Source of the DNA: Halobacteroides halobius DSM 5150
Lineage (GTDB): Bacteria > Bacillota > Halanaerobiia > Halobacteroidales > Halobacteroidaceae
Reading direction: 5' to 3'
NCBI RefSeq assembly: GCF_000328625.1
Contig: NC_019978.1
Span: forward strand, 1,674,001-1,738,000
Length of the DNA: 64,000 nucleotides
Below the pieces are notes generated by a model. It was given only the letters and a program-made list of their open reading frames with translations. It was not told where the DNA came from and did not search any database. The translations under genes and the position numbers were made by a program. Within the stretch, counting starts at the first letter, position 1. The number at the start of each line of letters is the position of its first letter. This document shows positions 40,728 to 56,665 of the stretch, one piece after another.

Positions 40728-41786
40728 CTATAATCTATTAATCAATTCTAGATTATTTTCTCTACTCTTAACTGCTACTCGAATGAAGTCTTCTCCTAAA
40801 CCAGAGTAAGTATTACAATTTCGAACTAAAATACCTTGTTGGGCCAACTTTTCCTCTAATCTAGTAGAAGTTAAGTTACTATTTTCTAGATCAACCAAGA
40901 TATAATTAGCATGAGGATAATACACTTTAAATTTGGAAAATTGATTCAATTTTTGATATAAAAATTCTTTTTCTCGTAAGATAGCTTCCTCAGTCTGTTT
41001 GATATATTCCTTATCATTTAAAGCTTTTTCCCCAGCTAACTGGGCCAAGCAATTAACATTCCAGGGATCTTTGCTAGCATTTAACTTCTTAATTAATTCC
41101 TTATTAGTTGCTCCATAACCTAATCGTAGACCAGGAATGGCAAAGAACTTAGTCAACGAACGCAATACAAATAGATTATCATACTGCTTAACTAAATCAA
41201 TTACTGTTATATCTTCCTCTAAAAAATCAACAAAAGCTTCATCTACTACCAGAAAAGTATCTTGACTCGCAGCATAATTGATTATCTCAATTATATCTTC
41301 TCTCGTTATAAATTTTCCGGTAGGATTATTGGGGTTACATAAAAAGAAGATATCAATATTATCTAATCTAGGTAATAAATCATCTAGATTAAATCTAAAT
41401 CCTTCTTCTTTCTGTAGTTGAAACTCCTCTATACTTCCTCCCACACTCTCTATCGCCAATCTATACTCTGAAAAGGTAGGAGCTAAGACCAAAGCCTCTC
41501 TAGGTGATAATACTGTAGCCAACAAATAAATCAACTCTACTGCTCCATTACCAATTACTAAATTATCCTCTTCTAAATTTTCTTGCTTAGCTATTATAGT
41601 CTTTAGCTGATTACACTCCGGATCAGGATAATCCTTTATCCCCTTTAAGTTATTCTTAAGTGCCTTAGTTACTGATTCAGGTGGTCCTAAAAAATTTATA
41701 TTAGCACTAAAATCAATTATTTCAGCTGGATCTAAATTATACTCTTTAGCTGCTGCTCTAATATTTCCTCCATGATTCTGTTGCAC
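40728..41786 (-). CDS. cobD: threonine-phosphate decarboxylase / histidinol-phosphate-aminotransferase-like
   Basis: 352 residues. Fold-type I PLP enzyme. HGGNIRAAAKEYNLDPAEIIDFSANIN is typical of CobD, which decarboxylates threonine phosphate to the (R)-1-amino-2-propanol phosphate arm of cobalamin. The PLP lysine is in RSLTKFFAIPGLRLGYG. It pairs functionally with PduX, the threonine kinase immediately upstream, as expected for one pathway. Start chosen at GTG 41786; the frame runs farther into an IS end. Its GAGGAGGG ribosome site is inside the IS right end, a consequence of the insertion. Last gene of the cobalamin locus. Confidence 0.9.
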   Translation of the reverse strand: MQQNHGGNIRAAAKEYNLDPAEIIDFSANINFLGPPESVTKALKNNLKGIKDYPDPECNQLKTIIAKQENLEEDNLVIGNGAVELIYLLATVLSPREALVLAPTFSEYRLAIESVGGSIEEFQLQKEEGFRFNLDDLLPRLDNIDIFFLCNPNNPTGKFITREDIIEIINYAASQDTFLVVDEAFVDFLEEDITVIDLVKQYDNLFVLRSLTKFFAIPGLRLGYGATNKELIKKLNASKDPWNVNCLAQLAGEKALNDKEYIKQTEEAILREKEFLYQKLNQFSKFKVYYPHANYILVDLENSNLTSTRLEEKLAQQGILVRNCNTYSGLGEDFIRVAVKSRENNLELINRL

Positions 41787-41789
41787 AAT

Positions 41790-41892
41790 TTGACCCTCCT
41801 CGGGGCAAGCCACCGAGGATTCTTAGGCTGAGAGTGTAACCACTACTCATATCTCCTAAGCGTAACTTCCTGTCAGCCCGACAGTACATATC
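41790..41892 (-). ncRNA. predicted omega (reRNA) scaffold at the right end of the TnpB element
   Basis: The 3' end of tnpB and the right end normally encode the guide RNA. The non-coding part here folds into several hairpins on the minus strand: GTAC...GTAC, CTGTC-GGGCT-GACAG, CTTAGG...CCTAAG enclosing GAGT...ACTC, and the terminal CCTCGG/CCGAGG. The guide would be the flank starting ATTGTGCAACAG, i.e. the start of cobD. Predicted from position and structure only. Confidence 0.55.
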
Positions 41893-43005
41893 CTAAGTGG
41901 TACTTACCTTCATTTTTAATCCTTCGTTTAAAATATTTTTACTGGCATTAATATCTCGGTCGTGTATTTCTCCACATTCAGGACATTTCCACTTTCTAAC
42001 TTTTAAATCTTTAACTTCTTTATTTTTGTAGCCACAGTTGCTACATTTTTGACTACTAGCAAAAAAGGTATCTATCTTAACTAAATTTCTACCATACCAT
42101 TTTGCTTTGTATTCTAACAATTCAACAAATTTACTCCAGCTAGCGTCAGAAATACTTTTAGCTAAGTTAGAGTTTTTAAGCATGTTCTTCACTTTAAGTG
42201 TTTCTAAGCAAATTGTTTGATTTTCACGAATTAGCTTAGTTGACAATTTATGAAGAAAATCTAATCTGATATTTCTAACTTTTTCATATACCTTAGCTAA
42301 TTTCTTTTTAACTTTATGCCAATTATTAGAACCTTTTTCTTTTCTAGCTAAACTCCTATTTAATCTAGCTATCTTTCTCTCGTATTTCTTTAATACTCTA
42401 GAATTAGCTATTTTTTCACCATCAGAAATTATAGCAAAATCTTTTAACCCTAAATCTATTCCAATAGCATTATCTTTTTTAGGCAGTTCTTTAATATCTT
42501 CTTTAACTGCTATTGAAATATAATATTTATCTGTATTATTTCTAGTAACTGTAACATTTAATATTTCGCCTTTGATTTCTTTAGATTTTCTAAACTTAAT
42601 CCAACCTAGTTTAGGTAATTTAATTTTATTGTCTTTAATCTCAATATTAGTAGTTCCACTTTTTCTAGTAAATTTGTTAGTACGATAAGAGTTCTTTTTA
42701 TTTTTCTTAGACTTAAATTTAGGGAAACTATATTTTTTGTTAAAGAAATTCTTAAAAGCTCTGTCTAAGTCTTTAAGTGCATTCTGTAAAGCGAATTTAT
42801 CTGGCTCTTTTAACCATTCTAGTTCTTTCTTTAATTGAGTTAGTTGTTTAGAATATTTAGTATAAGTCTTATACTCATCTTCTTTTGCTTTATCTAAGAA
42901 ATGATTATAAACATATCTAGCGCAACCTACTGATTTATTGATTAATATTCTCTGTTCTTTATTAGGACATAATCTAAACCTATACGCTTTTTCTCTAACT
43001 ACCAT
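41893..43005 (-). CDS. tnpB: TnpB (OrfB) RNA-guided nuclease, intact
   Basis: 370 residues, full length. N-terminal helical and OrfB domain (about 1-170), RuvC I Asp184 (IGIDLGLKD), RuvC II Glu268 (TICLETLKV), zinc ribbon Cys321/324 and Cys341/344 (CSNC, CPEC), RuvC III Asp351 (DRDINASK). All three catalytic residues and all four zinc ligands are present, so the nuclease should be active. TnpB uses an RNA from its own right end to cut DNA next to a short TAM, favouring retention of the element. AGGAGGTG ribosome site. No TnpA accompanies it. Confidence 0.95.
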
Positions 43006-43349: not shown

Positions 43350-44231
43350 TCACCTCATTATTTGATGACCACCATTAATTATTCTAGTCCTAGTAATATA
43401 CTTTAAACTAGGTGTTTGACTTCTAATTCTAGCTAAAATAGAATTAACTCTTTCTTCTGAAGCTAAAATAACCCCTATTAAAGTACCACTATGGGCTATA
43501 TTAATTCCTAAAATTTCTTCTTCTTGCCTAGCTAACTTAATTAATCTTTTCAACTGAGGTTTGTATAAAATAGATTGATTGGCCAAGCTACTTATAGTAG
43601 TTCCTTTTCCAATTAACCTCATATCTTCTCTATTAATTCCCTGCGCAATCAATTGATAAGCTTTTCTTACTTTCTTTTCTTTCTCTAATTTTAATTTAGT
43701 TAGATTTTCTCTAGCATTGAACTTAATTGTATCTACCCCTCCTCCAACATCAAAAATTAAAATAGGAACAGACTTTATCTGACCTAAGTTTGTTAGAGGT
43801 TGACCCTGCAAATGATTAAAAGCTACTATCCCAGATAAAAAACAAGCATCAGTTGGTTCAATAGATATAGCTATCTTCCTAACTAATTGAATATTCACTT
43901 CTGCTCCTAAAATTATCATGGTAGCAATGATCCCAGCTACAATATCTGCTGTACTACTGGCCATCCCTTTACCTGCTAATAATTCAGATTTTAAACTAAC
44001 TTGCAGACCAATATCTGAGATATTAAAATACTCTAAAGTCTTCTCAATAGCAAGTACTGTCTTAGCTGCTGCTTGATTAATCTTAATATTAGATAAAGAA
44101 CTATCTCTTTTAACTGTTACATAACTATATCGATCAATTGGACAGCTAATCTGAAGGTCAACTCCATCAATTATCCCTTGCATTAATTCTCCACAAGTGC
44201 CAGGCACCTTAACTGTTACTTCTTGTGTCAT
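43350..44231 (-). CDS. pduX: L-threonine kinase PduX (GHMP family)
   Basis: 293 residues. Phosphorylates L-threonine, the substrate that CobD decarboxylates for the aminopropanol arm of cobalamin. GHMP motifs: VKVPGTCGELMQG at the N-terminus, LLAGKGMASSTADIVAG (ATP loop) and the C-terminal ILGINIAHSGTLIGVIL. AGAGGAGTAAG ribosome site. The stop at 43350 is 10-14 bases from the left end of the TnpB element, which separates pduX from cobD; before the insertion the two genes were almost abutting. Confidence 0.9.
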   Translation of the reverse strand: MTQEVTVKVPGTCGELMQGIIDGVDLQISCPIDRYSYVTVKRDSSLSNIKINQAAAKTVLAIEKTLEYFNISDIGLQVSLKSELLAGKGMASSTADIVAGIIATMIILGAEVNIQLVRKIAISIEPTDACFLSGIVAFNHLQGQPLTNLGQIKSVPILIFDVGGGVDTIKFNARENLTKLKLEKEKKVRKAYQLIAQGINREDMRLIGKGTTISSLANQSILYKPQLKRLIKLARQEEEILGINIAHSGTLIGVILASEERVNSILARIRSQTPSLKYITRTRIINGGHQIMR

Positions 44232-44277: not shown

Positions 44278-45012
44278 CTACAAAGTAACTACCATCACTA
44301 ACAATGAAACTACCTCTATTACTTCATTAATAGCACCATAATTATCTCCTGTCAGGCCATCTATTTTATCCATAATTACTTTAACTAATACTATTGTAAC
44401 TAACCAACTAGCTAATAAAATATATATCCCATGTATTTCAAATAAAAAAACTCCTACCAATAACGTCCAACTAGTAGCCAATAAAAAATGTCTCAATTTC
44501 AAATGTTTCTGATAGACTTTTCCTAATCCTTCTTGGCGTGGATACGGATAGACAAAGGCTACATAAACCATAGTCCAACGACTAATTGTAGGGGCATATA
44601 ATAAAATTAATCTCTTATATTCAATTGGACTTTCTACTAATAAACTAAACTTCAACAACAATAATAGTACTACACCAATGACACCAAAGGCACCTACTCT
44701 ACTATCTCTCATTATATCTAAAATTCTTTCTTTATCTCTTCCACTAAAGATACCATCACAAGTATCCATTAAACCATCTAGATGAAGTCCACCAGTTAAA
44801 ACTACCATTCCAATTATCAACAAAGCATTTGTCACTAAGGGAGGAAAATATAATTCTCCTAATTGATTAACTGCCACTAAAATTGCCCCTATCAAATTTC
44901 CAATTACAGGGTAGTAGACCATTGAGGCCCCGATTGCTTGTTCATCATAATTTAACTCTTGTTTAACAGGAATACGAGTAATAAACTGTAGGGCCAACAA
45001 AAACTTATTCAT
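44278..45012 (-). CDS. cobS: adenosylcobinamide-GDP ribazoletransferase
   Basis: 244 residues, about six transmembrane segments. Joins alpha-ribazole (phosphate) to adenosylcobinamide-GDP, the last step of nucleotide-loop assembly. Family motifs: LALQFITRIPV, GLHLDGLMDTCDGIFSGRDKERILDIMRDSRVGAFG and the C-terminal DGLTGDNYGA. Start ATG overlaps the cobO stop by one base (TAATG), indicating translational coupling in the cobalamin operon. Confidence 0.94.
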   Translation of the reverse strand: MNKFLLALQFITRIPVKQELNYDEQAIGASMVYYPVIGNLIGAILVAVNQLGELYFPPLVTNALLIIGMVVLTGGLHLDGLMDTCDGIFSGRDKERILDIMRDSRVGAFGVIGVVLLLLLKFSLLVESPIEYKRLILLYAPTISRWTMVYVAFVYPYPRQEGLGKVYQKHLKLRHFLLATSWTLLVGVFLFEIHGIYILLASWLVTIVLVKVIMDKIDGLTGDNYGAINEVIEVVSLLVMVVTL

Positions 45013-45605
45013 TAGTACTCTATTCCCCGTCTGCTTTTAATACCTTGTTCTTGATAAGGGTGTTTAATAGCTTTCATCTCTGTTACTAAATCGGCTTTAT
45101 CTAAAATCTTTTCTGGTATCCCTCGACCAGTTAAAATTAGCTCTGTCTCTTCTGCTTTTAAATTGATTAAATCTAATACCTGATCAACTGTTAGTAAATC
45201 ATATCGTAAAGCATTATTAATTTCATCTAAAATAACAATATCTCTAGCTTCCTCTTGTAATACTTTAGTTGTGTACTTATAAGCCCAATCAACAAATTGC
45301 TGGTGCATCTCTTTATCTTCAGTTTGACTAACAAAACAATCTCCACAACCTTGACAATCCATTAGTCCCTCTTTAATTCCTGCTGCATAAGAACAACTTT
45401 TGCCAAATTGTTTAATATTAAAGTTAGGTAACCTTTCTGTAGAAAATAATTCTCCTGTATAACTACTTCCTTTTAGATACTGAATCATCTCTACTTTAAA
45501 TCCATGACCTGCTGCTCTTAATCCTAATCCTAAAGCAGCAGTAGTCTTTCCCTTACCCTTACCTGTATATACTTGTACTAAACCTTGCTTTAATTTCGCA
45601 TTCAT
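45012..45605 (-). CDS. cobO: corrinoid adenosyltransferase CobO/BtuR (CobA type)
   Basis: 197 residues. Transfers the adenosyl group of ATP to cob(I)yrinic acid a,c-diamide or cobinamide. P-loop VYTGKGKGKTTAALGLGLRA; ILDEINNALRYDLL; ELILTGRGIPEKIL. An extra Cys-rich segment lies about 70-95 (CSYAAGIKEGLMDCQGCGDC), with four closely spaced Cys that may bind metal; many homologues lack it. Ends one base into cobS and starts two bases before the cbiA stop. Confidence 0.94.
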   Translation of the reverse strand: MNAKLKQGLVQVYTGKGKGKTTAALGLGLRAAGHGFKVEMIQYLKGSSYTGELFSTERLPNFNIKQFGKSCSYAAGIKEGLMDCQGCGDCFVSQTEDKEMHQQFVDWAYKYTTKVLQEEARDIVILDEINNALRYDLLTVDQVLDLINLKAEETELILTGRGIPEKILDKADLVTEMKAIKHPYQEQGIKSRRGIEY

Positions 45606-45606
45606 T

Positions 45607-46986
45607 TTAGCTCCCCCTTTTATACTTCTGGCAATATCCTAAGAATCTATTTATTACTTTAGGTTGGCTACCAAAGTGTAAGTGAACATAACTAACCAAT
45701 AAATTATCTCTAACTATCCCTTCCAATCTTCCTTCTTCACCTCGTCCGCCATAGAGTTGATAAACTTGTTTACTCTCATCTGCTAAATTGATTAATTTAG
45801 AATAATGAAACTCATGACCTTTGGCTTTCTCTCCTTGTTTCAATAGGATGTTATCTCTAACTGCTTTAACATCTACATAGCCCATAGCTTGCAAACTATC
45901 TGTCATCTTAACTTGACCAGAAACTGCTCCTACCATAGGAAATCTTTTACCTTCATTATCTATTATCTCTTCAGTTAAATACATCAAACCTCCACATTCA
46001 GCATAAGTAGGTAAGTCTTCTCGAATATGCCGATATATATCTTGCTTTATACTCTTATTATTAACTAATTGCTGTAAAAAACTCTCTGGAAAGCCCCCTC
46101 CAATATATAAACCATCAACTTTAGGTAGTTTATTATCTTCTATAGGACTAAAAAACTTTAAGTCAACTCCTCTACTAGCTAATAAATCAAAATTATCTTG
46201 ATAATAAAAATTAAATGCTTCATCATAAGCTACCCCTAAAGTTAGATTATAATCCTTAGCAGATGTAAATATCTTCTTCTCTGTAACCTCAACTCCAGTT
46301 CCTTCTTGGGATAAAGAAACTAACTGCTCTAAATCAATATATTTCTCTATTAATTCTACTAGTTGGCTCCTAAAGTTCGCTAGCTCTTTGCTTTCAAAAG
46401 TTGGTACCAAACCTAAATGTCGCTCAGGTAATTCTAAATCTTTCTGATAAGGTAAATAGCCTAATACCTTAACTCCAACTTCCTCTTCTAAGGGTTTCTT
46501 TATCATCTCAAAATGTCCTTTACTTCCCACATTATTAAGAATTATTCCGGCTATATTTAAATCTGCATCAAAATTTTGATAACCATAGGCGAGAGCAACA
46601 GCACTTCTAGCCATCTTTTTAACATCCATAACTAAAACTACTGGTGTTTCTAAAATCTTAGCTATATGAGCTGTACTTCCTGCTCCATCTGTACCCTTTT
46701 TACCATCAAATAAGCCCATAACTCCTTCAATAATTGAAATATCACTCTCTCCTCCGGCATTCAAAAATGATTCTTTAACCCCTTCTTCTCCTAAGAAGAA
46801 ACTATCTAAATTTCGTGATTGATTACCTGTTACTAGAGTATGAAAACCAGGGTCTATATAATCCGGGCCAACTTTATAAGGCTGCACATTATATCCTTGT
46901 TTATCTAAAGCAGCCATCAAACCAATTGTTACTGTAGTCTTTCCTACTCCACTTTCTGTGCCAGCAATTACTACGCGAGGATTCAT
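45607..46986 (-). CDS. cbiA: cobyrinate a,c-diamide synthase
   Basis: 459 residues. ATP-dependent amidation of the a and c carboxylates of cobyrinate with glutamine. N-terminal P-loop (VIAGTESGVGKTTVTIGL), then a class I glutamine amidotransferase-like domain with the Cys in AECGGLMYLTEEI and the His of SYVHLHFGSQP. A YIGGGFPE motif is typical of the family. Full length. In the same operon as cobO, with a 176-base gap upstream holding a repeat element. Confidence 0.94.
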   Translation of the reverse strand: MNPRVVIAGTESGVGKTTVTIGLMAALDKQGYNVQPYKVGPDYIDPGFHTLVTGNQSRNLDSFFLGEEGVKESFLNAGGESDISIIEGVMGLFDGKKGTDGAGSTAHIAKILETPVVLVMDVKKMARSAVALAYGYQNFDADLNIAGIILNNVGSKGHFEMIKKPLEEEVGVKVLGYLPYQKDLELPERHLGLVPTFESKELANFRSQLVELIEKYIDLEQLVSLSQEGTGVEVTEKKIFTSAKDYNLTLGVAYDEAFNFYYQDNFDLLASRGVDLKFFSPIEDNKLPKVDGLYIGGGFPESFLQQLVNNKSIKQDIYRHIREDLPTYAECGGLMYLTEEIIDNEGKRFPMVGAVSGQVKMTDSLQAMGYVDVKAVRDNILLKQGEKAKGHEFHYSKLINLADESKQVYQLYGGRGEEGRLEGIVRDNLLVSYVHLHFGSQPKVINRFLGYCQKYKRGS

Positions 46987-47162: not shown

Positions 47163-48107
47163 TTAAACTATCATTAGTACAAAAGAGTAACATACGATAA
47201 AAGCCCCAACATCCCAGTACATTAGCTGTATCGTCTGTCTAATCTGCTGCGGCTGAAATTCAACCTTTGCATCACCTAAATAAGCCCGAAAACTCTCTCT
47301 TCCTTGATAATAATTGACTCCTCCTAATTGAATACCTAAAGCTCCAGCAACTGCTGCTTCAGGAAAACCAGCATTAGGGCTAGGATGCTTATTAGCATCT
47401 CTAATCATAATATCTATAGCACCTTTCCAACTATCACCTGTAAATAAAGCAGCTATCACAAATAATAATCCTGTTATTCGAGCCGGAATCCAGTTAGCTA
47501 AATCATCAATGCTAGCTGCAGCCCAGCCAAAATATTGATACTCTTCATTTTTATAGCCTAGCATAGAATCAAGAGTGTTAATTGCTTTATAAGCCATTGC
47601 TAAAGGTGCTCCCCCAACTACCCCATAAAAGAGAGGAGCAATTATTCCATCACTGGTGTTTTCAGCTACCGTTTCTATAGTTCCTCTAGTAACTTCTGCT
47701 ACAGTTAATTTATCTGTATCTCGACCTACAATCCAATCTAATCTTTTTCTAGCTAACTCTAAATTATCATTAATTAATGGTTGATAGATTGATTTTCCAG
47801 CCTGGGCCAACCCCTTAATTGCTATTGTAGTAGTCAATATCCAAACTTCACTTACCAATCCTAAGTAATAATTAATATAGTAAGCTAAATCAATCAACTT
47901 TTGAGTAATTAAATAAGTACTGATAATCATAATTAAAGATAATATAATTCCTGCTACTCTTTCTGATTGCTTACTAAATAGTTTTCTTAAAAACTTTTCT
48001 AACCTTTCAATTCCTCTACCAATGATTACTACTGGATGAGGATACCACCTCGGGTCCCCAATTATTAAATCAACTATTATTGCTAGTAGTAATAGATATC
48101 TATTCAT
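47163..48107 (-). CDS. cbiB: adenosylcobinamide-phosphate synthase
   Basis: 314 residues, several membrane segments. Attaches aminopropanol (phosphate) to adenosylcobyric acid. Family motifs: IIVDLIIGDPRWYPHPVVIIGR, TVAENTSDGIIAPLFYG, AYKAINTLDSMLGY and RDANKHPSPNAGFPEAAVAGALG. The frame extends to 48131, but ATG 48107 has GAGGTGAG directly upstream. Repeat elements lie on both sides. Confidence 0.94.
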   Translation of the reverse strand: MNRYLLLLAIIVDLIIGDPRWYPHPVVIIGRGIERLEKFLRKLFSKQSERVAGIILSLIMIISTYLITQKLIDLAYYINYYLGLVSEVWILTTTIAIKGLAQAGKSIYQPLINDNLELARKRLDWIVGRDTDKLTVAEVTRGTIETVAENTSDGIIAPLFYGVVGGAPLAMAYKAINTLDSMLGYKNEEYQYFGWAAASIDDLANWIPARITGLLFVIAALFTGDSWKGAIDIMIRDANKHPSPNAGFPEAAVAGALGIQLGGVNYYQGRESFRAYLGDAKVEFQPQQIRQTIQLMYWDVGAFIVCYSFVLMIV

Positions 48108-48167
48108 CTTCTCACCTCTTATAAAGTTCAATCCTCATTTTAATAGGACAAATGTCCTAACAGTAAA

Positions 48168-48300
48168 TTGAAAATTAAAATCAAACCCTTTTAACCCAAT
48201 AGTATATAAAGAACTATATAGATTTTGTCTTGAGGTTTGAATTTCCTACCAGTCCTCTGGACTGTTCGTGTAAATCACTGTAAATTGTACATTGTCAATT
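48168..48300. repeat. related AT-rich repeat between cobQ copy 1 and cbiB
   Basis: Left end TAAATTGAAAATTAAAATCAA, right end TAAATTGTACATTGTCAATTAAT. The interior AAACCC(C)TTTTAA and GATTTTG...AGGTTTGAA recall the copy at 47031-47150 in the same order. Its right end reaches into the last codons of cobQ copy 1 (stop at 48295). Confidence 0.5.
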
Positions 48301-49806
48301 AATATCTATAACCTGATACAACAACTCCATATCCAGATGTTCTCTTACCACATCTGCTAATTGATTATAAGCTTTTTCTCTCTCCTGCTTGACTGAAAGA
48401 GTATTCTTAGCTATTGAAGATAATCCCTTCTTTACTCTTAACTGATTAATAAAATCTCTTCTAAATTGATCATTATCAAATAAACCATGAATATATGTCC
48501 CCCAGACTAGACCTGATCGACTATATGTCCCATCTAGAATTTGAACTTCTCTTCTAGAACGCTCTGTAATCTCAAAGAGATGGTTAGCAGTTGGCCCTAG
48601 TTTAGTCTCTCCGACATGTATTTCATAACCTGTTAGTACTTCCTGCTGAGAATTAAATAAACTATCCTCTTTAACTCTAGCTGCTATCTGATTAGTAACC
48701 TTATCTGTTAATAAAGTAGTCTTTATATCTAATAGACCTAACCCTTTAATCTCTCCTTGGTCTGTTTCTATTCCAGATGGATCATAAATAACGTTACCTA
48801 ACATTTGATAGCCACCACAAATGCCTACAACTGGTACTCCAGCTTCTACTTGTTCAATAATTCTTTTTGCACCACCAGTCTGATATAAGTATTCTAAATC
48901 CTCAATTGTATTCTTACTCCCTGGTAGAATGATTAAATCTGGACTTCCTAATTCCTTTTTAAGATCCACATACCTTACTCTAGTCTCAAACTCCTGTGCT
49001 AAAGCATCAAAGTCAGTAAAGTTAGAAATGTGAGGTAACTTAACTACTACAATATCTAACTGATAATCTTTACTTCCCTGCTTATAACTTGGTATTGAAT
49101 CCTCTTCTGGAAGATTATAATCACTTATATAAGGAATTATCCCTAAGATAGGAATCCCAGTCTCTTCTTCAATATAATCTATACCAGATTGTAGCCGTTT
49201 TACAGCACCACGAAATTTATTAATAATAATCCCTTTAATTCGTTCTTGCTCTGCTTCATTAAGCAGTTCTAAAGTCCCAATAATACTAGCAAAAACTCCT
49301 CCGCGATCAATATCAGCTACCAGAATAACAGGTGCTTGGGCCAACTTAGCTATCTTCATATTAACCATATCATAATCCCTTAGATTCACTTCAGCTGGAC
49401 TACCCGCCCCTTCTAAAACAACTACCTGGTACTCATTCTTTAATCTAGCTAAAGAATCTTTAACTGCTTGTAAACCAACTTGTTGCTTACTAAAATACTC
49501 TTTAGCAGTCATATTTTTCTTAACCTGACCATGAATAATTACTTGGGAAGTAGTATCTTCTTTAGGCTTGAGTAAAATTGGGTTCATATCTATTGTTGCT
49601 TCTACTTTTGCAGCTTCAGCTTGGACAGCTTGGGCTCGGCCAATTTCTCCTCCCTTTTTAGTCACATATGAATTCAAAGCCATATTTTGCGACTTAAAAG
49701 GGGCTACATGATAGCCTTCTTGAATTAAAATCCTACTTACAGCAGCTGTCAAGGTGCTTTTACCTACATCTGAAGCTGTTCCCTGAAACATTATTGTCTT
49801 TTTCAC
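48295..49806 (-). CDS. cobQ: cobyric acid synthase, copy 1
   Basis: 503 residues. Amidates the b, d, e and g carboxylates of adenosylcobyrinic a,c-diamide with glutamine and ATP. P-loop GTASDVGKSTLTAAVSR, VVLEGAGSPAEVNLRDYDMVN, and a glutaminase domain with Cys in GICGGYQMLGN and His in GTYIHGLFDN, both intact. GTG start overlaps the stop of copy 2 by four bases (GTGA), so the two are translationally coupled. It is clearly a paralogue of copy 2 but not a recent duplicate; the sequences have diverged over their whole length. Confidence 0.95.
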   Translation of the reverse strand: MKKTIMFQGTASDVGKSTLTAAVSRILIQEGYHVAPFKSQNMALNSYVTKKGGEIGRAQAVQAEAAKVEATIDMNPILLKPKEDTTSQVIIHGQVKKNMTAKEYFSKQQVGLQAVKDSLARLKNEYQVVVLEGAGSPAEVNLRDYDMVNMKIAKLAQAPVILVADIDRGGVFASIIGTLELLNEAEQERIKGIIINKFRGAVKRLQSGIDYIEEETGIPILGIIPYISDYNLPEEDSIPSYKQGSKDYQLDIVVVKLPHISNFTDFDALAQEFETRVRYVDLKKELGSPDLIILPGSKNTIEDLEYLYQTGGAKRIIEQVEAGVPVVGICGGYQMLGNVIYDPSGIETDQGEIKGLGLLDIKTTLLTDKVTNQIAARVKEDSLFNSQQEVLTGYEIHVGETKLGPTANHLFEITERSRREVQILDGTYSRSGLVWGTYIHGLFDNDQFRRDFINQLRVKKGLSSIAKNTLSVKQEREKAYNQLADVVREHLDMELLYQVIDIN

Positions 49807-51344
49807 TTTCTCACCATCCTAATCTCTCCACCCTCTAAGATCTCATAAAATAACTCTAGATCAAGATTTTCCCGCACTACTTCAGCTAATCGATTATAAT
49901 TCTTTTTTAATTCTTCGCTACTAGAAGAATAATCTTCATCTAATTTAGCTAATCCTTTTTGACTCCGTAAATTATTGATAAATTCTCTTCTAAATTGATC
50001 ATTAGCAAATAAACCATGTAAGTATGTACCCCAGATAGTTCCTTCTTTATTACAGGCTCCATCATTTATCTCTACCTGCTGATCAGACCGATAATTGATC
50101 CTAAAAATAGGTTCTACTTGATCTCCTAAACTAGTTTGGCCCATATGAATTTCATAGCCTGTTACTTGTTGGCCCACTAGATTAGAAAAGAAATTTTGCT
50201 TACTTTTTATCTCAGCACTGACTTGATAAGTTGACTTAGCTGGACTAAACTCCGTTTCTATATCTAATAACCCTAGTCCTCTACTGACTCTTTTATCTCC
50301 TTCAGTCAATTCAGAATCTAACAACTTATTACCCAACATCTGATAACCACCACAGATACCAATAATTGATACTCCTTTTTCTGCTAATTCAATTATTTTT
50401 TCAGCTAAACCTGTTTCTTTCAAATATTCTAAATCAGCAGTTGTATTCTTAGTTCCAGGAATAATTATTGTATCAAAACCAGATAATTGGTCATTTCTTT
50501 CTAGATACTTAAGTGCTACCTGTGGTTCTAAAGCTAAAGCATCAAAATCAGTAAAATTAGAAATATGAGGTAACTTAATAATTCCTATCTTAACTTCAGC
50601 CTCCTGCTTAGTAAAACTAGCTAAGGAAACATTATCTTCCTCAGGTAATCTAAAATCTCTTAAATAAGGTATGACTCCTACTACCGGTTTCCCTACCTTT
50701 TCCTCTAGTATCTCAATTCCTGGCTTTAATAAATCAAAATCACCTCTAAATTTATTTAATATAATCCCTTGTACTAATTCTCTTTCTTCCGGTTCTAATA
50801 ACTTTAAAGTTCCAACTACTGAAGCTAATGCTCCTCCTCGGTCAATATCCGCTACTAACAATACAGGAGTCTGATTTAATTTAGCTACCTTCATATTAGC
50901 TAAATCTTGATCTTTAATATTTATTTCTGCTGGACTCCCTGCTCCTTCTAAAACAATCACTTCATATTCTCGGGCCAAATCCTGTAATGAATCAGATATT
51001 ATTTCTAACGCCCAGTTAATATACTTAGAACTCTTTCTCTCTAATCCAAAGTCACCATAAGGTTCTCCTCTAACTATTACTTGGGATTGGCCCTTTCCTT
51101 TAGGTTTAACTAATAGTGGTTGCATCTTAACAGTAGGATTTATTCCTGCTGCATCTGCTTGAATTGCTTGAGCACAACCAATTTCCCCTCCTTGAGGTGT
51201 AACATAAGAATTTAAAGCCATATTCCAAGACTTAAAGGGAGCTACTTGATAGCCATCCTGGGCCAACATGCGACATAAAGCAGTAGCTAATATACTCTTT
51301 CCTACATTAGAAGCTGTACCCTGAATCATAATTCCTTGCACCAT
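49803..51344 (-). CDS. cobQ: cobyric acid synthase, copy 2 (tandem paralogue)
   Basis: 513 residues. Same domain order as copy 1: P-loop GTASNVGKSILATALCR, VIVLEGAGSPAEINIKDQDLAN, glutaminase Cys in GICGGYQMLGN and His in GTYLHGLFAND. All catalytic residues seen in single-copy CobQ are present in both, so neither looks like a pseudogene. Two adjacent full-length CobQ genes are unusual: one enzyme normally performs all four amidations. GGAGGTGAG ribosome site. A repeat element lies between this gene and cobU. Confidence 0.94.
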   Translation of the reverse strand: MVQGIMIQGTASNVGKSILATALCRMLAQDGYQVAPFKSWNMALNSYVTPQGGEIGCAQAIQADAAGINPTVKMQPLLVKPKGKGQSQVIVRGEPYGDFGLERKSSKYINWALEIISDSLQDLAREYEVIVLEGAGSPAEINIKDQDLANMKVAKLNQTPVLLVADIDRGGALASVVGTLKLLEPEERELVQGIILNKFRGDFDLLKPGIEILEEKVGKPVVGVIPYLRDFRLPEEDNVSLASFTKQEAEVKIGIIKLPHISNFTDFDALALEPQVALKYLERNDQLSGFDTIIIPGTKNTTADLEYLKETGLAEKIIELAEKGVSIIGICGGYQMLGNKLLDSELTEGDKRVSRGLGLLDIETEFSPAKSTYQVSAEIKSKQNFFSNLVGQQVTGYEIHMGQTSLGDQVEPIFRINYRSDQQVEINDGACNKEGTIWGTYLHGLFANDQFRREFINNLRSQKGLAKLDEDYSSSSEELKKNYNRLAEVVRENLDLELFYEILEGGEIRMVRK

Positions 51345-51360
51345 CTACTCACCTCCAGTA

Positions 51361-51456
51361 ACTAATTGACAATTTAGAATGCACAATTGACAGTTAAAAT
51401 CAATTAAGCTACATTGCATATAAGACATATCTGAATTTTCCTTTTAATTGTTAATT
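51361..51456. repeat. AT-rich repeat between cobU and cobQ copy 2
   Basis: ACTAATTGACAATTTAGAAT and GCACAATTGACAGTTAAAAT on the left, TTTTAATTGTTAATTGAATT on the right: the same ACAATT-type words in inverted orientation as in the copies at 47031 and 48168. It runs into the last codons of cobU. Confidence 0.5.
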
Positions 51457-52035
51457 GAATTTCGTCCGCTCTGCCAACTCTTTAATCTCAACAGGTAAAC
51501 CAGCATAAGTTATATAAACCTCATCGGCCTCATTCGCTACTAACTGATTAACTCTTCCTGCAATATCTCGATAAACTCTACCCAATTTATAAGGAGGTAC
51601 TAAACCTTGGCCCACTTCATTAGAAACCAGCACTACAGTTAAATCTTTTTCTTTAATTTTAGTAATTATTTTTTCTATTTCACTTATTATTTCTTCTTCT
51701 TTCATTTGCTCATTAAAATCATATTCATCTTCATTTAACTCTTCATTCTGTAATAGCAGATTTGAAATTAATACTGTTAAACAATCTACCAAAACAACCG
51801 AACCTTTCTTTATTTCACTTAAAATCTGACTAACTTCTCTACTTTCCTCAATGGTAGTCCACTCTTGAGGACGAGATGCTTGGTGTTGTTTTATTCTTTC
51901 TTTCATCTCTTTATCTCTAGGCTGAGAAGTTGCAATATATGTAACTTCTAAACCTCCTAAATTTGTAACAATTTCTTCGGCAAAACTACTTTTACCACTT
52001 CTTGCACCGCCTAACACTAGAATTAACCTACTCAT
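51451..52035 (-). CDS. cobU: adenosylcobinamide kinase / adenosylcobinamide-phosphate guanylyltransferase
   Basis: 194 residues. Phosphorylates adenosylcobinamide and activates it with GTP for nucleotide-loop assembly. P-loop LVLGGARSGKSSFAEEI, THIATS-equivalent VTYIATSQPRDKEM, HQASRPQEW (the guanylated His region), and EVGQGLVPPYKLGRVYRDIAG. Somewhat longer middle loop than usual, acidic (LQNEELNEDEYDFNEQMKEEE). Separated from cobT by 276 bases that carry a small plus-strand gene. Confidence 0.94.
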   Translation of the reverse strand: MSRLILVLGGARSGKSSFAEEIVTNLGGLEVTYIATSQPRDKEMKERIKQHQASRPQEWTTIEESREVSQILSEIKKGSVVLVDCLTVLISNLLLQNEELNEDEYDFNEQMKEEEIISEIEKIITKIKEKDLTVVLVSNEVGQGLVPPYKLGRVYRDIAGRVNQLVANEADEVYITYAGLPVEIKELAERTKFN

Positions 52036-52311: not shown

Positions 52312-53361
52312 CTATTCTATTATTATCTGCGCCTCTTCAAAGGTAGCCATATCACTAATAATCTTAGTTGCAGCTTCTACTAGATTCATACTTAAAACTG
52401 CTCCTGTTCCTTCACCTAACCTCATATCTAAATCCAATAATGGTTTTAAACCTAATAGATCATAGATTTTAATATGGCCTGGTTCTACTGATTTATGAGA
52501 TGAAATCAAGTAACCTGTAACCTGTGGCTTTAGTTTCTTAGCGATCAAAGCAGCAGCTCCTGAAATTAAACCATCTACTATAACTGGTACGCGATTAGCA
52601 GCTGCTACTAACATAACTCCAGCCATACCTGCTATCTCTAAGCCACCTACTTTAGCTAAGATATCAATGCCATCATCAACTTGGGGCTGATTTACTGCTA
52701 AAGATTGAGTAATTACTTGCTTCTTCTTTTTTAATCCTGCCTCATCAATTCCTGTTCCATAACCAACTATCTCATCTAATGATAAATCAGTAATAGTAGC
52801 CAAAATAGCACTACTAGCGGTAGTATTTCCAATTCCCATCTCACCTGTTCCAATTAAATTAGCTCCTTGAGAGATTAGGTCTTTACCGACTTCAATTCCT
52901 ACTTCTAAAGCAGCCCTAGCTTCCTGACGAGACATAGCAGAACCTTGAGCTAAATTATCAGTTCCTGCCTTTACTTTCTTAATAACCAGATTTTCAGCTT
53001 CTAATTCATTAACAACTCCTATATCTACTATTGTTACTTCAGCTGCCATCTGTTTAGCTAACACATTAACAGCAGCTCCTCCATTTAAAAAATTATAAAC
53101 CATCTGAGTAGTTACTTCTTGTGGAAAAGCACTTACCCCTTCAGCTACTACTCCATGGTCAGCAGCCATTACAATATGAGCTTTATGGTCAACCTTAGGA
53201 AATAATTCTCCAGTTATTCCAGCTAATTTAACTGCAATTTCTTCTAATTTCCCTAAACTTCCTGGTGGCTTAGTTAAACTATCTAACCTTTCTTGGGCCT
53301 GATTCATCTTTTCTTGATCTAACTTTTCAATCTTGGCAACTGTCTCTTCTAATAAACCCAT
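52312..53361 (-). CDS. cobT: nicotinate-nucleotide-dimethylbenzimidazole phosphoribosyltransferase
   Basis: 349 residues. Makes alpha-ribazole phosphate from nicotinate mononucleotide and the lower-ligand base. Family motifs: LDSLTKPPGSLGKLEE, VMAADHGVVAEGVSAFP, GEMGIGNTTASSAI and the catalytic Glu in GEGTGAVLSM near the end. The frame continues to 53430, but the Met at 53361 has GAGGAGG upstream and gives the usual length. Which benzimidazole or phenolic base is used cannot be read from sequence. Confidence 0.95.
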   Translation of the reverse strand: MGLLEETVAKIEKLDQEKMNQAQERLDSLTKPPGSLGKLEEIAVKLAGITGELFPKVDHKAHIVMAADHGVVAEGVSAFPQEVTTQMVYNFLNGGAAVNVLAKQMAAEVTIVDIGVVNELEAENLVIKKVKAGTDNLAQGSAMSRQEARAALEVGIEVGKDLISQGANLIGTGEMGIGNTTASSAILATITDLSLDEIVGYGTGIDEAGLKKKKQVITQSLAVNQPQVDDGIDILAKVGGLEIAGMAGVMLVAAANRVPVIVDGLISGAAALIAKKLKPQVTGYLISSHKSVEPGHIKIYDLLGLKPLLDLDMRLGEGTGAVLSMNLVEAATKIISDMATFEEAQIIIE

Positions 53362-53472
53362 TTTTATGCCTCCTCTATTCCTCAGATGATCATACTTCAC
53401 AAAACTAATACCGAAATTGCTAATAGCCAAAGATATATGTTAAAATAAAATCCCTTTATCCATTTTTTTGAA

Positions 53473-54249
53473 TTAAAGAATTATATATGGTTTGTTGGTG
53501 TCGTAATCTTTTTTGACTAGCACCTCTGCCCCATAAACTTCCTTTATATTTTGGGAAGTAATTACTTTTTCTGGTCTACCAAAATCATAAATTTGGCCTT
53601 GCTTAAGCAGTAGTAATTTATCACAATACTTAGCAGCTAAATTTAAATCATGTAGTACTATTAAAATAGTTAATTTATGATTACAATTAAGTCTTGTTAA
53701 TAAATTCATTATTTCTAACTGGTAATTAATATCTAAATTAGAGGTCGGTTCATCTAATAATAATATTTCTGGCTGTTGGGCCAAGCTTCTAGCTAAAATA
53801 ACCCTTTGTCTTTCTCCTCCACTAAGTTGGTTGATAGATCTATTAGCTAATTCTAAAGTATTAGTCAACTCTAGCGCTTGCTTAACAATCTTTACATCTT
53901 CTGCTGTTTCACTAATAAATCTACTAAGGTAAGGGTTTCTGCCCATCATCACTAACTCCCTAACCGTAAAATCAAAGTTAACACTAGTATTTTGAGGTAC
54001 AACAGCTAACTTTTTAGCTATTTCTTTCTTCTTAAATCTCTGCAGATCAAAATTATCTAAATAAATTGTTCCCGATTTAGGCTGAAAAATATTATTTATA
54101 TTCTTAAGTAAAGTAGATTTTCCAGAGCCATTTGGACCAATTAAACCTATAAACTCTCCTTCTTTAATAGCAAAACTAATATTTTGTAAAACTTCTAAGT
54201 TATCATAGCTATAACTTAATTGATCAACTTCAAGTTTGCTAACAATCAT
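53473..54249 (-). CDS. btuD: corrinoid ABC transporter ATP-binding protein
   Basis: 258 residues. Walker A GPNGSGKSTLLKNI, signature LSGGERQRVILARSLA, Walker B LLLDEPTSNLD, H-loop VLHDLN. Belongs to the FecE/BtuD group that energises iron-siderophore or vitamin B12 uptake; the riboswitch and cob genes point to corrinoids. Followed by cobT after about 110 bases, preceded by the permease gene after 51 bases. Confidence 0.9.
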   Translation of the reverse strand: MIVSKLEVDQLSYSYDNLEVLQNISFAIKEGEFIGLIGPNGSGKSTLLKNINNIFQPKSGTIYLDNFDLQRFKKKEIAKKLAVVPQNTSVNFDFTVRELVMMGRNPYLSRFISETAEDVKIVKQALELTNTLELANRSINQLSGGERQRVILARSLAQQPEILLLDEPTSNLDINYQLEIMNLLTRLNCNHKLTILIVLHDLNLAAKYCDKLLLLKQGQIYDFGRPEKVITSQNIKEVYGAEVLVKKDYDTNKPYIIL

Positions 54250-54300
54250 TACCTCCTCCTATAGTGAATTTGGTTTTAGATTTTAATTATCAATTTGTAG

Positions 54301-55317
54301 TTAAAATCCTGTAGTCTTTTTCTTACTTAACAAATAAAGAAAGAAAGGGCCTCCAAATAAAGAGGTTATAATCCCTACAGGAATTTCAGTTGGAGCAATT
54401 ACTGTCCGGGCCAATGTATCAGTTAAAATTAAAAAGATTGCACCTACCAAAGCTGAGCTAGGAATTAAAATTCTATGATCTGGGCCAACTAATAATCTCA
54501 CTAAATGGGGAATGATTAAGCCTACAAAACCAATTACTCCACTTCCTGCTACTGCTACCCCAGCCAATAAGGAACCAACTATTAATAAAATCTTCTTTAT
54601 TTGTTCTGCTTCAACCCCTAAGCCCTGGGCTGCTTCTGCCCCTAATAACATAATATTCAAATCTCTAGCAAAAACATGAATTGAAAAATAACCAATTATA
54701 ATATAAATCCAGATCATTTCTACCTTAGCCCAATCAGCTACAGCTAAACTACCCATCATCCAAAATACAATTCGTTGCATACTTTGATTGTTAAAGACCA
54801 TCAATAAAGAAACAATAGCCGACAGAAATGAACCAACTGCTACTCCTGCCAGCAATAAAGTGCTTACTGAAATCTTGTGCCCCACTTTAGCTAGATTATA
54901 AACAATAAAAGTAGTTACTAAGGCGCCACTAAAAGCAAATATAGGAATACTATTTAAGCCTAATAGACTAAATTGAAAATCCCACAACATCCCTAAAGTT
55001 GCTCCTAAAGATGCTCCCGAAGAAATCCCGATTACATAAGGGTCAGCCATCGGATTCTTTAGTAAAGCCTGAAAAACTGTGCCTGAAGTTGCTAAAGCTA
55101 ATCCTACTAAACCAGCTAATAATACCCTAGGTAATCTAATCTTCCAAATAATAGTCTGACTGACCCCCAGCTTTTCCCCTAATTTAAATAAAATCTGTAT
55201 TACTTTTAAAAAAGGGATCTTTACTGCTCCTAAGCTAGTCGCTACTATAACTGTTAAAATCAAGAATATAATTAATCCTACAATAATGCCTCGCCATTTT
55301 GTTTTTTTAGTCTTCAT
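54301..55317 (-). CDS. btuC: corrinoid ABC transporter permease
   Basis: 338 residues with about ten membrane segments. FecCD/BtuC signatures: IRLPRVLLAGLVGLALATSGTVFQALLKNPMADPYVIGISSGASLG and GVIGFVGLIIPHLVRLLVGPDHR. Forms the membrane channel with BtuD and receives substrate from BtuF. Lies between btuF and btuD in the riboswitch-led operon. Confidence 0.93.
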   Translation of the reverse strand: MKTKKTKWRGIIVGLIIFLILTVIVATSLGAVKIPFLKVIQILFKLGEKLGVSQTIIWKIRLPRVLLAGLVGLALATSGTVFQALLKNPMADPYVIGISSGASLGATLGMLWDFQFSLLGLNSIPIFAFSGALVTTFIVYNLAKVGHKISVSTLLLAGVAVGSFLSAIVSLLMVFNNQSMQRIVFWMMGSLAVADWAKVEMIWIYIIIGYFSIHVFARDLNIMLLGAEAAQGLGVEAEQIKKILLIVGSLLAGVAVAGSGVIGFVGLIIPHLVRLLVGPDHRILIPSSALVGAIFLILTDTLARTVIAPTEIPVGIITSLFGGPFFLYLLSKKKTTGF

Positions 55318-55370
55318 ATAGTATCAACTCTTCTTTTTAATTCTTTAATTTATTAACAAAAGTTCAATCG

Positions 55371-56294
55371 TTACTCATCACTTGTCACTGAAAATAACTT
55401 AGGATGAAGAACTTTAGCTATTTTTTCTAAAGCAATAACAATTCTTGGCCCAGGCCGATTAACAATATCAGGATTCAAAATATGAACCCTACCTTCTCTG
55501 ATGGCCTTAATTGAAGCAAATTCATCTCTATTCATAATAGTTCTTTTAGTTACTGTACCCTTCCAACTATGTTTAGAAGCTAAGTAAACATCAGGATTTT
55601 TAGCTAATAAAACTTCAAAACTATACTGGGGCCAAGCACTTTGAGCATCATGGGCAATATTTACTCCACCAGCTAAAGAAATTAGATTATCAATAAACGT
55701 ATTAGGGCCTGCTGTATATAATGGTTGCTTCCAGACCTCATAAAAAACTTCTGGGCGCTGCTTTTGACTGACATGCTCCTTGATAGTTTCAGTAATCTTA
55801 TTTATTTTATCTTGCATTCTAGTTGTTAACTTACGAGCTTTTTTTTGTTGGCCCGTTATTTTACCCACTAAAGAAATACTAGCTATAATTTCTTTTATAG
55901 TTTTAGGGTTTAGACCAATAACTTTAATCCCTAATTGTCTTAATCTCTTCACCATTTCTTTAGATGTAATTCCTGCTGCCAAAACTAAATCAGGTTTTAA
56001 TTGAATTATCGTTTCTAGATTCTTACTACTAACCTGTTTCTTCTTAGTTGCTGCTTGAGGATAGTCAGCATGTTTTGTTACCCCTACTACTTTATCCTCT
56101 AACCCTAAAGCAAATAAAATCTCAGTATTACTAGGAGCTAAAGAAATAATCCGCTTAGGTTGTTCATCAATAGTGACCTTTTCTTTTAAATCATCCGTAA
56201 CTGTTATAGGATAATCTGTTGCTTGAACAATACTTCCTCCAACTAATAAGCTAATTAATACTAATAAATAAACTAGATTCTTCTTTAATTTCAT
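55371..56294 (-). CDS. btuF: corrinoid-binding protein of the ABC transporter
   Basis: 307 residues. Signal peptide (NLVYLLVLISLLVGGSIVQA); no lipobox Cys is evident, so attachment to the cell surface is unclear. Two lobes of the BtuF/FhuD fold: RIISLAPSNTEILFALGLEDKVVGVTKHADYP, KPDLVLAAGI, WPQYSFEVLLAKNPDVYLAS and GPRIVIALEKIAKVLHP. First gene after the cobalamin riboswitch, so uptake is expected to be the most tightly vitamin-controlled step. GGGGGATATTT precedes the ATG. Confidence 0.9.
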   Translation of the reverse strand: MKLKKNLVYLLVLISLLVGGSIVQATDYPITVTDDLKEKVTIDEQPKRIISLAPSNTEILFALGLEDKVVGVTKHADYPQAATKKKQVSSKNLETIIQLKPDLVLAAGITSKEMVKRLRQLGIKVIGLNPKTIKEIIASISLVGKITGQQKKARKLTTRMQDKINKITETIKEHVSQKQRPEVFYEVWKQPLYTAGPNTFIDNLISLAGGVNIAHDAQSAWPQYSFEVLLAKNPDVYLASKHSWKGTVTKRTIMNRDEFASIKAIREGRVHILNPDIVNRPGPRIVIALEKIAKVLHPKLFSVTSDE

Positions 56295-56384: not shown

Positions 56385-56580
56385 CCTCCTTGCTACCGAA
56401 GTAATAGTAGTTGCTAGCTAACTAGGCAGGTCTCCTGACTTCTAGCTTACATTAAGCTTTACCTTCCCCAAAAGCTGAGTGGTATCTTAAGCTCAATCTG
56501 CTAGTTACAGTGGCGGGCCCGTTCAGGATTTACACCTGATTCCCTATTCTCCCTTAACCGTAGTTAAAGGCACCTAATTA
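56385..56580 (-). promoter_or_regulatory. cobalamin riboswitch (AdoCbl-type aptamer)
   Basis: Minus-strand landmarks in order: GGTGCC (56574-56569), GGGAATCAGGTGTAAATCCTGAACGGGCCCGCCACTGT in the plus-strand complement 56515-56548, and the B12 box AAGTCAGGAGACCTGCC (56441-56425). These are the conserved core elements of cobalamin riboswitches. It precedes btuFCD and the cob genes, and a terminator follows, so binding should stop transcription. The aptamer ends are approximate. Confidence 0.95.
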
Positions 56581-56665
56581 TTTAATATTTAATTATTATC
56601 CGCTATACAATATTCTTATGCATAGTTTACTAAATTCCTGCTTAATAATCTAAATATTTTTTTAC

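Follow-up and report, generated by a model that had tools for sequence, protein, structure and literature searches.

An ancient tandem pair of cobyric acid synthase paralogues in Halobacteroides halobius as candidate subunits of a heteromeric enzyme

Two CobQ genes in tandem

The DNA under study is a 64,000-nucleotide stretch of the Halobacteroides halobius DSM 5150 genome (NC_019978.1, positions 1,674,001 to 1,738,000; here called the window), in which two genes for cobyric acid synthase (CobQ) lie in tandem on the minus strand. The first, designated QB (49803-51344), starts with ATG and encodes 513 residues; the second, QA (48295-49806), starts with GTG and encodes 503, and the end of QB overlaps the start of QA by 4 nucleotides. 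Both are intact open reading frames (ORFs) with CbiA/AAA_26 and GATase_3 domains. QA and QB score 570 and 571 bits, respectively, against TIGR00313 (curated cut-off 309.9) and 651 and 622 bits against NF001989 (curated cut-off 273), which places both in the CobQ/CbiP family by equivalog profile. No third CobQ above cut-off was found in the window genome (2,649,255 bases in a single contig). An excerpt of PMC7242693 assigns the last four amidations to a single enzyme, CobQ/CbiP.

The initial annotation had called the two genes tandem, overlapping, diverged and apparently intact, and all of this is borne out, the proteins sharing 52% identity across 501 residues. It had also stated that both copies retain the family's motifs. 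This holds for the P-loops (GTASDVGKS/GTASNVGKS) and for the glutaminase Cys and His (C330/H440 in QA, C331/H443 in QB), whereas the loop that follows the active-site lysine is altered in QB. A degenerate copy in the window is ruled out by the profile scores, by the presence of the Cys and His, and by the purifying selection described below.

The alterations in QB were located by comparing 56 canonical, 34 QA and 45 full-length QB rows, with positions given in QA numbering. Position 40 is Gln in 56/56 canonical and 34/34 QA rows (90/90) and Trp in 45/45 QB rows. Likewise A101 and Y104 are invariant in canonical CobQ and QA, whereas in full-length QB A101 is kept in 11% of rows and Y104 in none. 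The window QB carries W40, L101 and K104 in place of the canonical Q, A and Y. Its diagnostic codon 40 (51225..51227, minus strand) lies two residues past Lys38, the aligned counterpart of Lys37 in dethiobiotin synthetase. The window QA is unchanged at all 62 invariant positions checked. QA rows are about as conserved as canonical ones (invariant alignment cells changed in residues 6-142: 7/1360 for QA, 8/2240 for canonical CobQ). Judged from the alignment, QA is a canonical (Q-type) CobQ; QB is, by profile, a within-family paralogue with an altered site, for which CobQ activity is predicted.

Phylogeny, gene order and decay of the pair

A phylogeny was calculated from 138 full-length rows (IQ-TREE quick search, with support from the Shimodaira-Hasegawa-like approximate likelihood ratio test, SH-aLRT, only). 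Left out were 27 loci, the partial proteins of G431 (second locus), G433 and G434, and all rows shorter than 430 residues (G, L and f here mark genomes, loci and families). The 27 loci comprised 26 exact duplicates and L136, a contig-edge fragment identical to QB of G418 at 146 of 151 residues. Full-length copies with Trp at position 40 (W-type) from tandem genomes and from genomes with QB alone (QB-only) form a single clade (45 rows, SH-aLRT 96). QA of the class Halanaerobiia and of families f8 and f125, with L147 and L158, forms a separate clade (27 rows, SH-aLRT 98), and the seven Dethiobacter-type QA rows, on long branches, group together at another place in the tree that is not firmly supported. 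The QB clade does not include the three W-type CobQs in the tree that come from other phyla than Bacillota, which also have Trp at position 40. Of the single canonical CobQs in the class, six fall in a group with singles from other Bacillota (15 rows, SH-aLRT 99), and for this reason the pair seems to have been replaced in those six genomes. QB-only genomes occupy two clear places among QB (f6 and G177); G412, on a long branch and present only in the ATPase-domain tree, is likely a third QB-only origin. By its phylogeny, QB-QA is an ancient pair and not a local duplication: a recent duplication is ruled out by the 52% identity and the separate clades.

Gene order was compared at 64 W-type loci, after removal of the 27 loci named above. 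At 44 of these a CobQ partner is present, always downstream on the same strand, and the window makes a 45th. The spacing falls within -60 to +130 nucleotides in 43 of the 44, many of them at -4. The other 20 loci comprise eight from QB-only genomes (two in G441), one fused gene (L122), and 11 in which the W-type gene is cut or alone. The fused gene (L122, 2621-3802, minus strand) is a 393-residue ORF in which the ATPase domain of a QB runs into the second half of a QA' (defined below), and is either a natural fusion or an assembly error.

The ratio of non-synonymous to synonymous substitution (dN/dS, Nei-Gojobori) was taken from pairs with unsaturated dS; several comparisons involving L124, L157 and L169 were saturated and gave no ratio. 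It is 0.07-0.20 for both copies of the pair and 0.10-0.11 for QB-only genes, indicative of purifying selection on each. Plain dosage redundancy after duplication would fit the P-loop, glutaminase Cys and His present in both window copies. It is nevertheless very hard to credit, given the 52% identity, the separate clades, the fixed residue differences, and the keeping of both copies in 24 genomes of the class.

In five Dethiobacter-related genomes (G096, G283 and those of L124, L157 and L169) the second gene, here QA', encodes the ATPase domain only and has lost the catalytic loop. Ser12, Lys38, Asn41 and Met42 are lost in 5/5 (one Met42 being a gap), and the Walker Lys16 in 2/5. The losses are uneven along the fold: 86/200 invariant cells are lost in residues 6-142, as against 4/80 in 159-222. 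The QB partners of QA' retain Lys16, Lys38 and Asn41, and have lost 19/200 cells in 6-142 and 14/80 in 159-222. For QB of other pairs the corresponding counts are 156/1400 and 30/560, and for QB-only proteins 35/320 and 2/128. In block 159-222 the partners of QA' differ from QB-only proteins with a Fisher p of 4e-5, in a test that ignores kinship and with block boundaries chosen after looking. The dN/dS of QA' between G096 and G283 is 0.175, compared with 0.194 for the adjoining QB; because this is indicative of purifying selection, QA' is a retained protein and not a relic. On these sequences, QA has turned into a conserved pseudo-enzyme in some relatives, keeping one block of its fold.

The glutaminase domain has also been lost. 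CobQ proteins without it were found in G430, G431, G412, G096 and G283 and at L121, L128, L149, L150 and L157. When loss is scored as a length below 400 residues, with the fused L122 counted in, parsimony on an ATPase-domain tree (64 rows) gives seven changes to ATPase-only QB. The match of the final 50 residues to the CobQ tail beats all 500 shuffles in 16 of 18 ATPase-only proteins, the exceptions being QB of G430 and G431. This persistence of the C-terminal tail fits excision of the glutaminase. In four further genomes (L115, L124, L158 in both copies, and L172) the glutaminase Cys is replaced by Gly, giving 5/138 full-length rows, none of them canonical. No separate glutaminase for the ATPase-only pairs was found, CobB being the only strong GATase_3 match in G430 and the only match in G096. 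Anaerobic digesters are the presumed source of the AS-named metagenome-assembled genomes (MAGs), and soda lakes that of the CSSed-named ones; we take the two habitats to be rich in free ammonia.

Genome G096 is informative for the division of labour within the pair. It carries, in one run, CbiD, E, T, L, F, G, H, precorrin-6A reductase, CbiC and CobB. CobB is its sole GATase_3 match, and its three CobQ-profile matches (three of five candidates scored) are taken as QB, QA' and CobB. The CobQ step in G096 thus appears, from gene content, to fall to a glutaminase-less QB together with a QA' that lacks the Walker Lys. This bears on the suggestion in the initial annotation that the paralogues divide the four amidations. 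In this reading QA and QB would share out the b, d, e and g side chains as two independent enzymes. Both copies have long been kept and constrained, and the residues near the active-site lysine of QB are changed, as altered regiospecificity would need. In G096, however, which has a ring operon and CobB, a working P-loop is found only in QB; moreover, a single canonical CobQ replaces the pair in other members of the class, and QB-only genomes exist. Division of the side chains between independent enzymes is accordingly disfavoured, and we regard it as improbable.

The fold offers a way in which two paralogues could act together. The model of QB (predicted local distance difference test, pLDDT, 89.1) aligns with dethiobiotin synthetase 1dbs (Z 18.9, 3.3 Å, 216 residues aligned), and its glutaminase half matches GatD (Z 21.4). 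The dethiobiotin synthetase alignment spans model residues 2-499, so the tail helix is probably part of the ATPase domain. A sequence-based search returned no solved full-length CobQ relative, the matches being GatD and other glutaminases and BioD and other P-loop proteins. According to the part of PMC8659263 consulted, dethiobiotin synthase is a homodimer whose two subunits have the substrate site between them. If CobQ, which in Pseudomonas is likewise a homodimer, is built like BioD, a heterodimer with two unlike sites would be expected from a duplicated CobQ.

It is an even call, in our judgement from sequence and from the BioD analogy, that QB and QA are paralogous subunits of a heteromeric cobyric acid synthase with composite, dethiobiotin-synthetase-like sites. 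An ancient duplication of a homodimeric CobQ would have given rise to both, each subunit consisting of an ATPase domain of dethiobiotin-synthetase type into which a glutaminase domain is inserted. To each site one subunit would contribute the P-loop, the Lys38 loop and, where it is QB, Trp40, and its partner would contribute the 166-182/196-200 block. The catalytic equipment of both window subunits is complete, so both sites should work, the putative substrate being adenosylcobyrinic acid a,c-diamide from CobB/CobO, which would be amidated to cobyric acid for CbiB. The catalytic loop of QB is retained in all lineages sampled. In members of the class that have given up CobB, QA is absent, and QB presumably acts there as a homodimer on salvaged corrinoids. 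That QA' keeps one block while its QB partner leans the other way is as expected if only the site with the P-loop of QB is still used. Among the three options offered in the initial annotation, a hetero-oligomer is the best supported, by fixed order, coupling and complementary decay, although the complex is a predicted one.

Operon context and distribution

The pair lies in a minus-strand operon for corrinoid uptake and cobamide synthesis, led by a cobalamin riboswitch (56408..56592; RF00174, 113.2 bits). The riboswitch lies upstream of the BtuF-like gene, and is followed by genes for BtuF-, BtuC- and BtuD-like proteins, CobT, CobU, QB, QA, CbiB, CobB, CobO, a CobS-like protein, a PduX-like protein and CobD. 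The transporter (53473..56294) comprises ORFs 53473-54249, 54301-55317 and 55371-56294, the first matching ABC_tran and the C and F components being named from their translations. CobT, the NaMN:DMB phosphoribosyltransferase (52312..53430; TIGR03160), and CobU, the adenosylcobinamide kinase/guanylyltransferase (51451..52035; PRK05800), score above cut-off, as do three proteins encoded beyond QA: CbiB, the adenosylcobinamide-phosphate synthase of the next gene downstream (47163..48131; TIGR00380), CobB/CbiA, the cobyrinic acid a,c-diamide synthase (45607..46986; TIGR00379 and PRK01077), and CobD, the threonine-phosphate decarboxylase (40728..41813; TIGR01140). The CobO/CobA-type corrinoid adenosyltransferase (45012..45605) scores 167.0 bits against TIGR00708, slightly below the cut-off of 167.75. 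The CobS-like ORF (44278..45012) is named from its translation and has homologues at the equivalent operon place in relatives. The PduX-like GHMP kinase (43350..44231) is named from its operon place, with GHMP-kinase matches below cut-offs only. Between the CobD and PduX-like genes lies a gene judged by eye to be TnpB-like (41893-43005, minus strand), with no BLAST match in 40 related loci.

No CbiC or CbiD match was found in the window genome (G000), although CobB, both CobQs and the remaining late pathway are intact. For this reason corrin-ring synthesis seems, from gene content, to have disappeared from this genome, with the pathway from CobB onward retained. CbiD is likewise missing from G402, a member of the same family.

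The distribution of the pair was followed in 13 genomes of the host's order, 59 of its class, 398 drawn from the phylum, and a scan of GTDB species contigs. Two adjacent CobQs over cut-off are present in 12/13 genomes of the order. The 59 class genomes divide into 24 with tandem QB-QA (G430 and G431 having ATPase-only copies), seven with QB alone, eight with a single canonical CobQ and 20 with none over cut-off. One of the seven, G412, is ATPase-only and slightly below cut-off. Completeness of the QB-only genomes is 100 for G177, 97 for G227, 95 for G412, 93 for G439, 80 for G438, 79 for G441 and 62 for G440, and the QB sequences of G439 and G440 are identical. Of the 398 phylum genomes, 19 show the W pattern of QB, and 14 of these have CbiC (the exceptions are G000, G177, G227, G001 and G283). 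The GTDB scan gave 60 W-pattern matches, eight of them not CobQ; the remainder include Dethiobacter, other Bacillota MAGs, and six loci from Actinomycetota, Acetobacteraceae and FCPU426. Tandem QB-QA recurs outside the class, in Dethiobacter-type and other Bacillota. In G431 (L109, L111) a second, partial QA-type ATPase-only gene lies on another contig, with its own CobB-like, CbiB, PduX-like and CobD genes.

These surveys bear on another suggestion of the initial annotation, that the paralogues act on different corrinoids. Stated in full, QA and QB would be separate homodimers, QA finishing the CobB product and QB amidating imported, incomplete or damaged corrinoids in salvage. The class does split in this sense: CobB is over cut-off in 24/24 tandem and 0/7 QB-only genomes (6/8 canonical), CbiD in 21/24 and 0/7 (3/8 canonical), and PF01902 (DUF71) is found in 0/24 and 7/7, in 0/8 canonical genomes and in three genomes with no CobQ. 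The PF01902 proteins were read from six of the seven QB-only genomes, five having ENGEF/YH and one EEGEFH; the former is the motif given for the DUF71-B12 salvage subgroup in the excerpted text of PMC3541065. Purifying selection on QB-only genes, transporter genes or CobU beside QB in many loci, and the count of CbiC in genomes with W-type CobQs outside Bacillota (0/6) point in the same direction. In four f6 genomes (L234, L236, L237 and L239) the DUF71-B12 gene lies near a CobO-type adenosyltransferase gene.

Other observations do not sit well with separate substrates. Among canonical Q-type singles, 11/50 are in genomes with no CbiC match (G284, G191, G234, G309, G021, G268, G350, G105, G045, G274 and G120), and Trp40 is evidently not required where the ring is not made. 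Since Q-type CobQ without a CbiC match is common, Trp40 alone is no marker of salvage, and a rule that Trp40 means salvage is ruled out. Ring-making G096 appears to have only QB and a dead QA', the window genome has neither CbiC nor CbiD and still keeps QA, and CobB is retained in the genomes of L121 and L124, where QA' is degenerate. Completeness is just 62-80% for three of the seven QB-only genomes, and G439 and G440 share one QB sequence. We know of no salvage substrate that requires CobQ. The option of different corrinoids is thus partly supported, in that QB is the copy kept in the seven CobB-less class genomes, all with PF01902, and two separate homodimers are a possibility of real but minority weight.

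Two related ideas were tried and set aside. CbiZ is absent from all 24 tandem genomes and occurs in 1/59 class genomes only (G411, with a canonical CobQ), which prompted the idea that QB replaces CbiZ; this was dropped as less likely, because PF01902 is present in the QB-only genomes and ligase motifs are retained in QB. Long BtuD proteins were considered as BtuD-CbiZ fusions, but no CbiZ was found by Pfam in three Dethiobacter-type and four other W-type loci tested. BtuD-like proteins of 419-452 residues, with a long C-terminal extension without its own Pfam match, are encoded at L193 (6335-7693), L195 (9618-10895) and L198 (12315-13574).

Weight of the heteromer proposal and known systems

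Several points weigh against a QB-QA heteromer. Functionally related operon neighbours can stay together without forming a complex. Ordinary paired QB is not clearly more frayed than QB-only protein in block 159-222 (p 0.10 for the counts above), and the post hoc block boundaries and the neglect of kinship by the Fisher tests count here too. The decay of QA' is known from five Dethiobacter-related MAG sequences and not from the window's own family. In the genomes of L121 and L124 CobB is retained although the second gene is degenerate; QA function is therefore not lost simply as a consequence of losing CobB. The seven class genomes that keep QB without QA show that QB is not strictly dependent on QA, the CbiC-less Q-type singles count among the contrary results as well, and in G001 both copies are intact but neither CbiC nor a CobB-sized GATase_3 protein was found. 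Finally, that the block faces the partner's site is presumed by analogy with BioD structures, in which the loop corresponding to residues 166-182 probably carries residues for binding the substrate of the adjacent subunit. The sequences, gene order, distribution, constraint, block-wise decay and fold match are observations; the heteromer, the orientation of the block, the substrate and the salvage role are inferences.

A fuller scenario is offered somewhat more tentatively than the heteromer itself, as short of an even chance. Here an ancient duplication of CobQ would have given a heteromer in which QB provides the working site and QA a complementing face. QA would have become a pseudo-enzyme in some lineages, and the glutaminase would have been shed repeatedly (about seven times in QB) to leave ammonia-fed amidotransferases. 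Once without QA, QB would take part in corrinoid salvage alongside DUF71-B12.

With a widespread and ancient two-paralogue CobQ that shows reciprocal decay, it would become possible to investigate the side chains recognised by each subunit, for which natural one-site pairs would be useful. The QB-only genomes, together with the canonical CobQs from genomes without a CbiC match (11/50 sampled), suggest that CobQ has a use in the salvage of corrinoids, of which no account was found, and QB is a possible partner for DUF71-B12 proteins. For annotation, 'CobQ present' is no proof of de novo B12 synthesis. No account of paired CobQs was found in literature searches, as judged from listings. The excerpted text of PMC3541065 holds no description of them; it puts forward a B12-salvage role for the DUF71-B12 family, mentions CbiP in the legend of a figure, and as of 2012 leaves the reaction open. 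In the term-matched parts of PMC5481537 the DUF71 paper is cited and nothing more.

Among known systems, the window pair is like CobQ/CbiP (TIGR00313, NF001989) in profile, domain order, P-loop and glutaminase Cys and His. It is unlike it in having two paralogues in fixed tandem, one with Trp40 and without Ala101 and Tyr104, and in that some relatives are without the glutaminase. DUF71-B12 (PF01902) has a salvage context in common with the QB-only genomes, all seven of which carry it, but is another protein family and is found in none of the 24 tandem class genomes. MurT/GatD resembles QB in the glutaminase half and has its ligase and glutaminase on separate polypeptides, whereas QB-QA pairs two whole ligase-glutaminase proteins. 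BioD, which closes the ureido ring of dethiobiotin, shares the ATPase-domain fold and the Lys38-Lys37 correspondence. It differs in being a homodimer without a glutaminase and in forming no amide, where CobQ makes amides, and it serves as the model for the proposed inter-subunit site.

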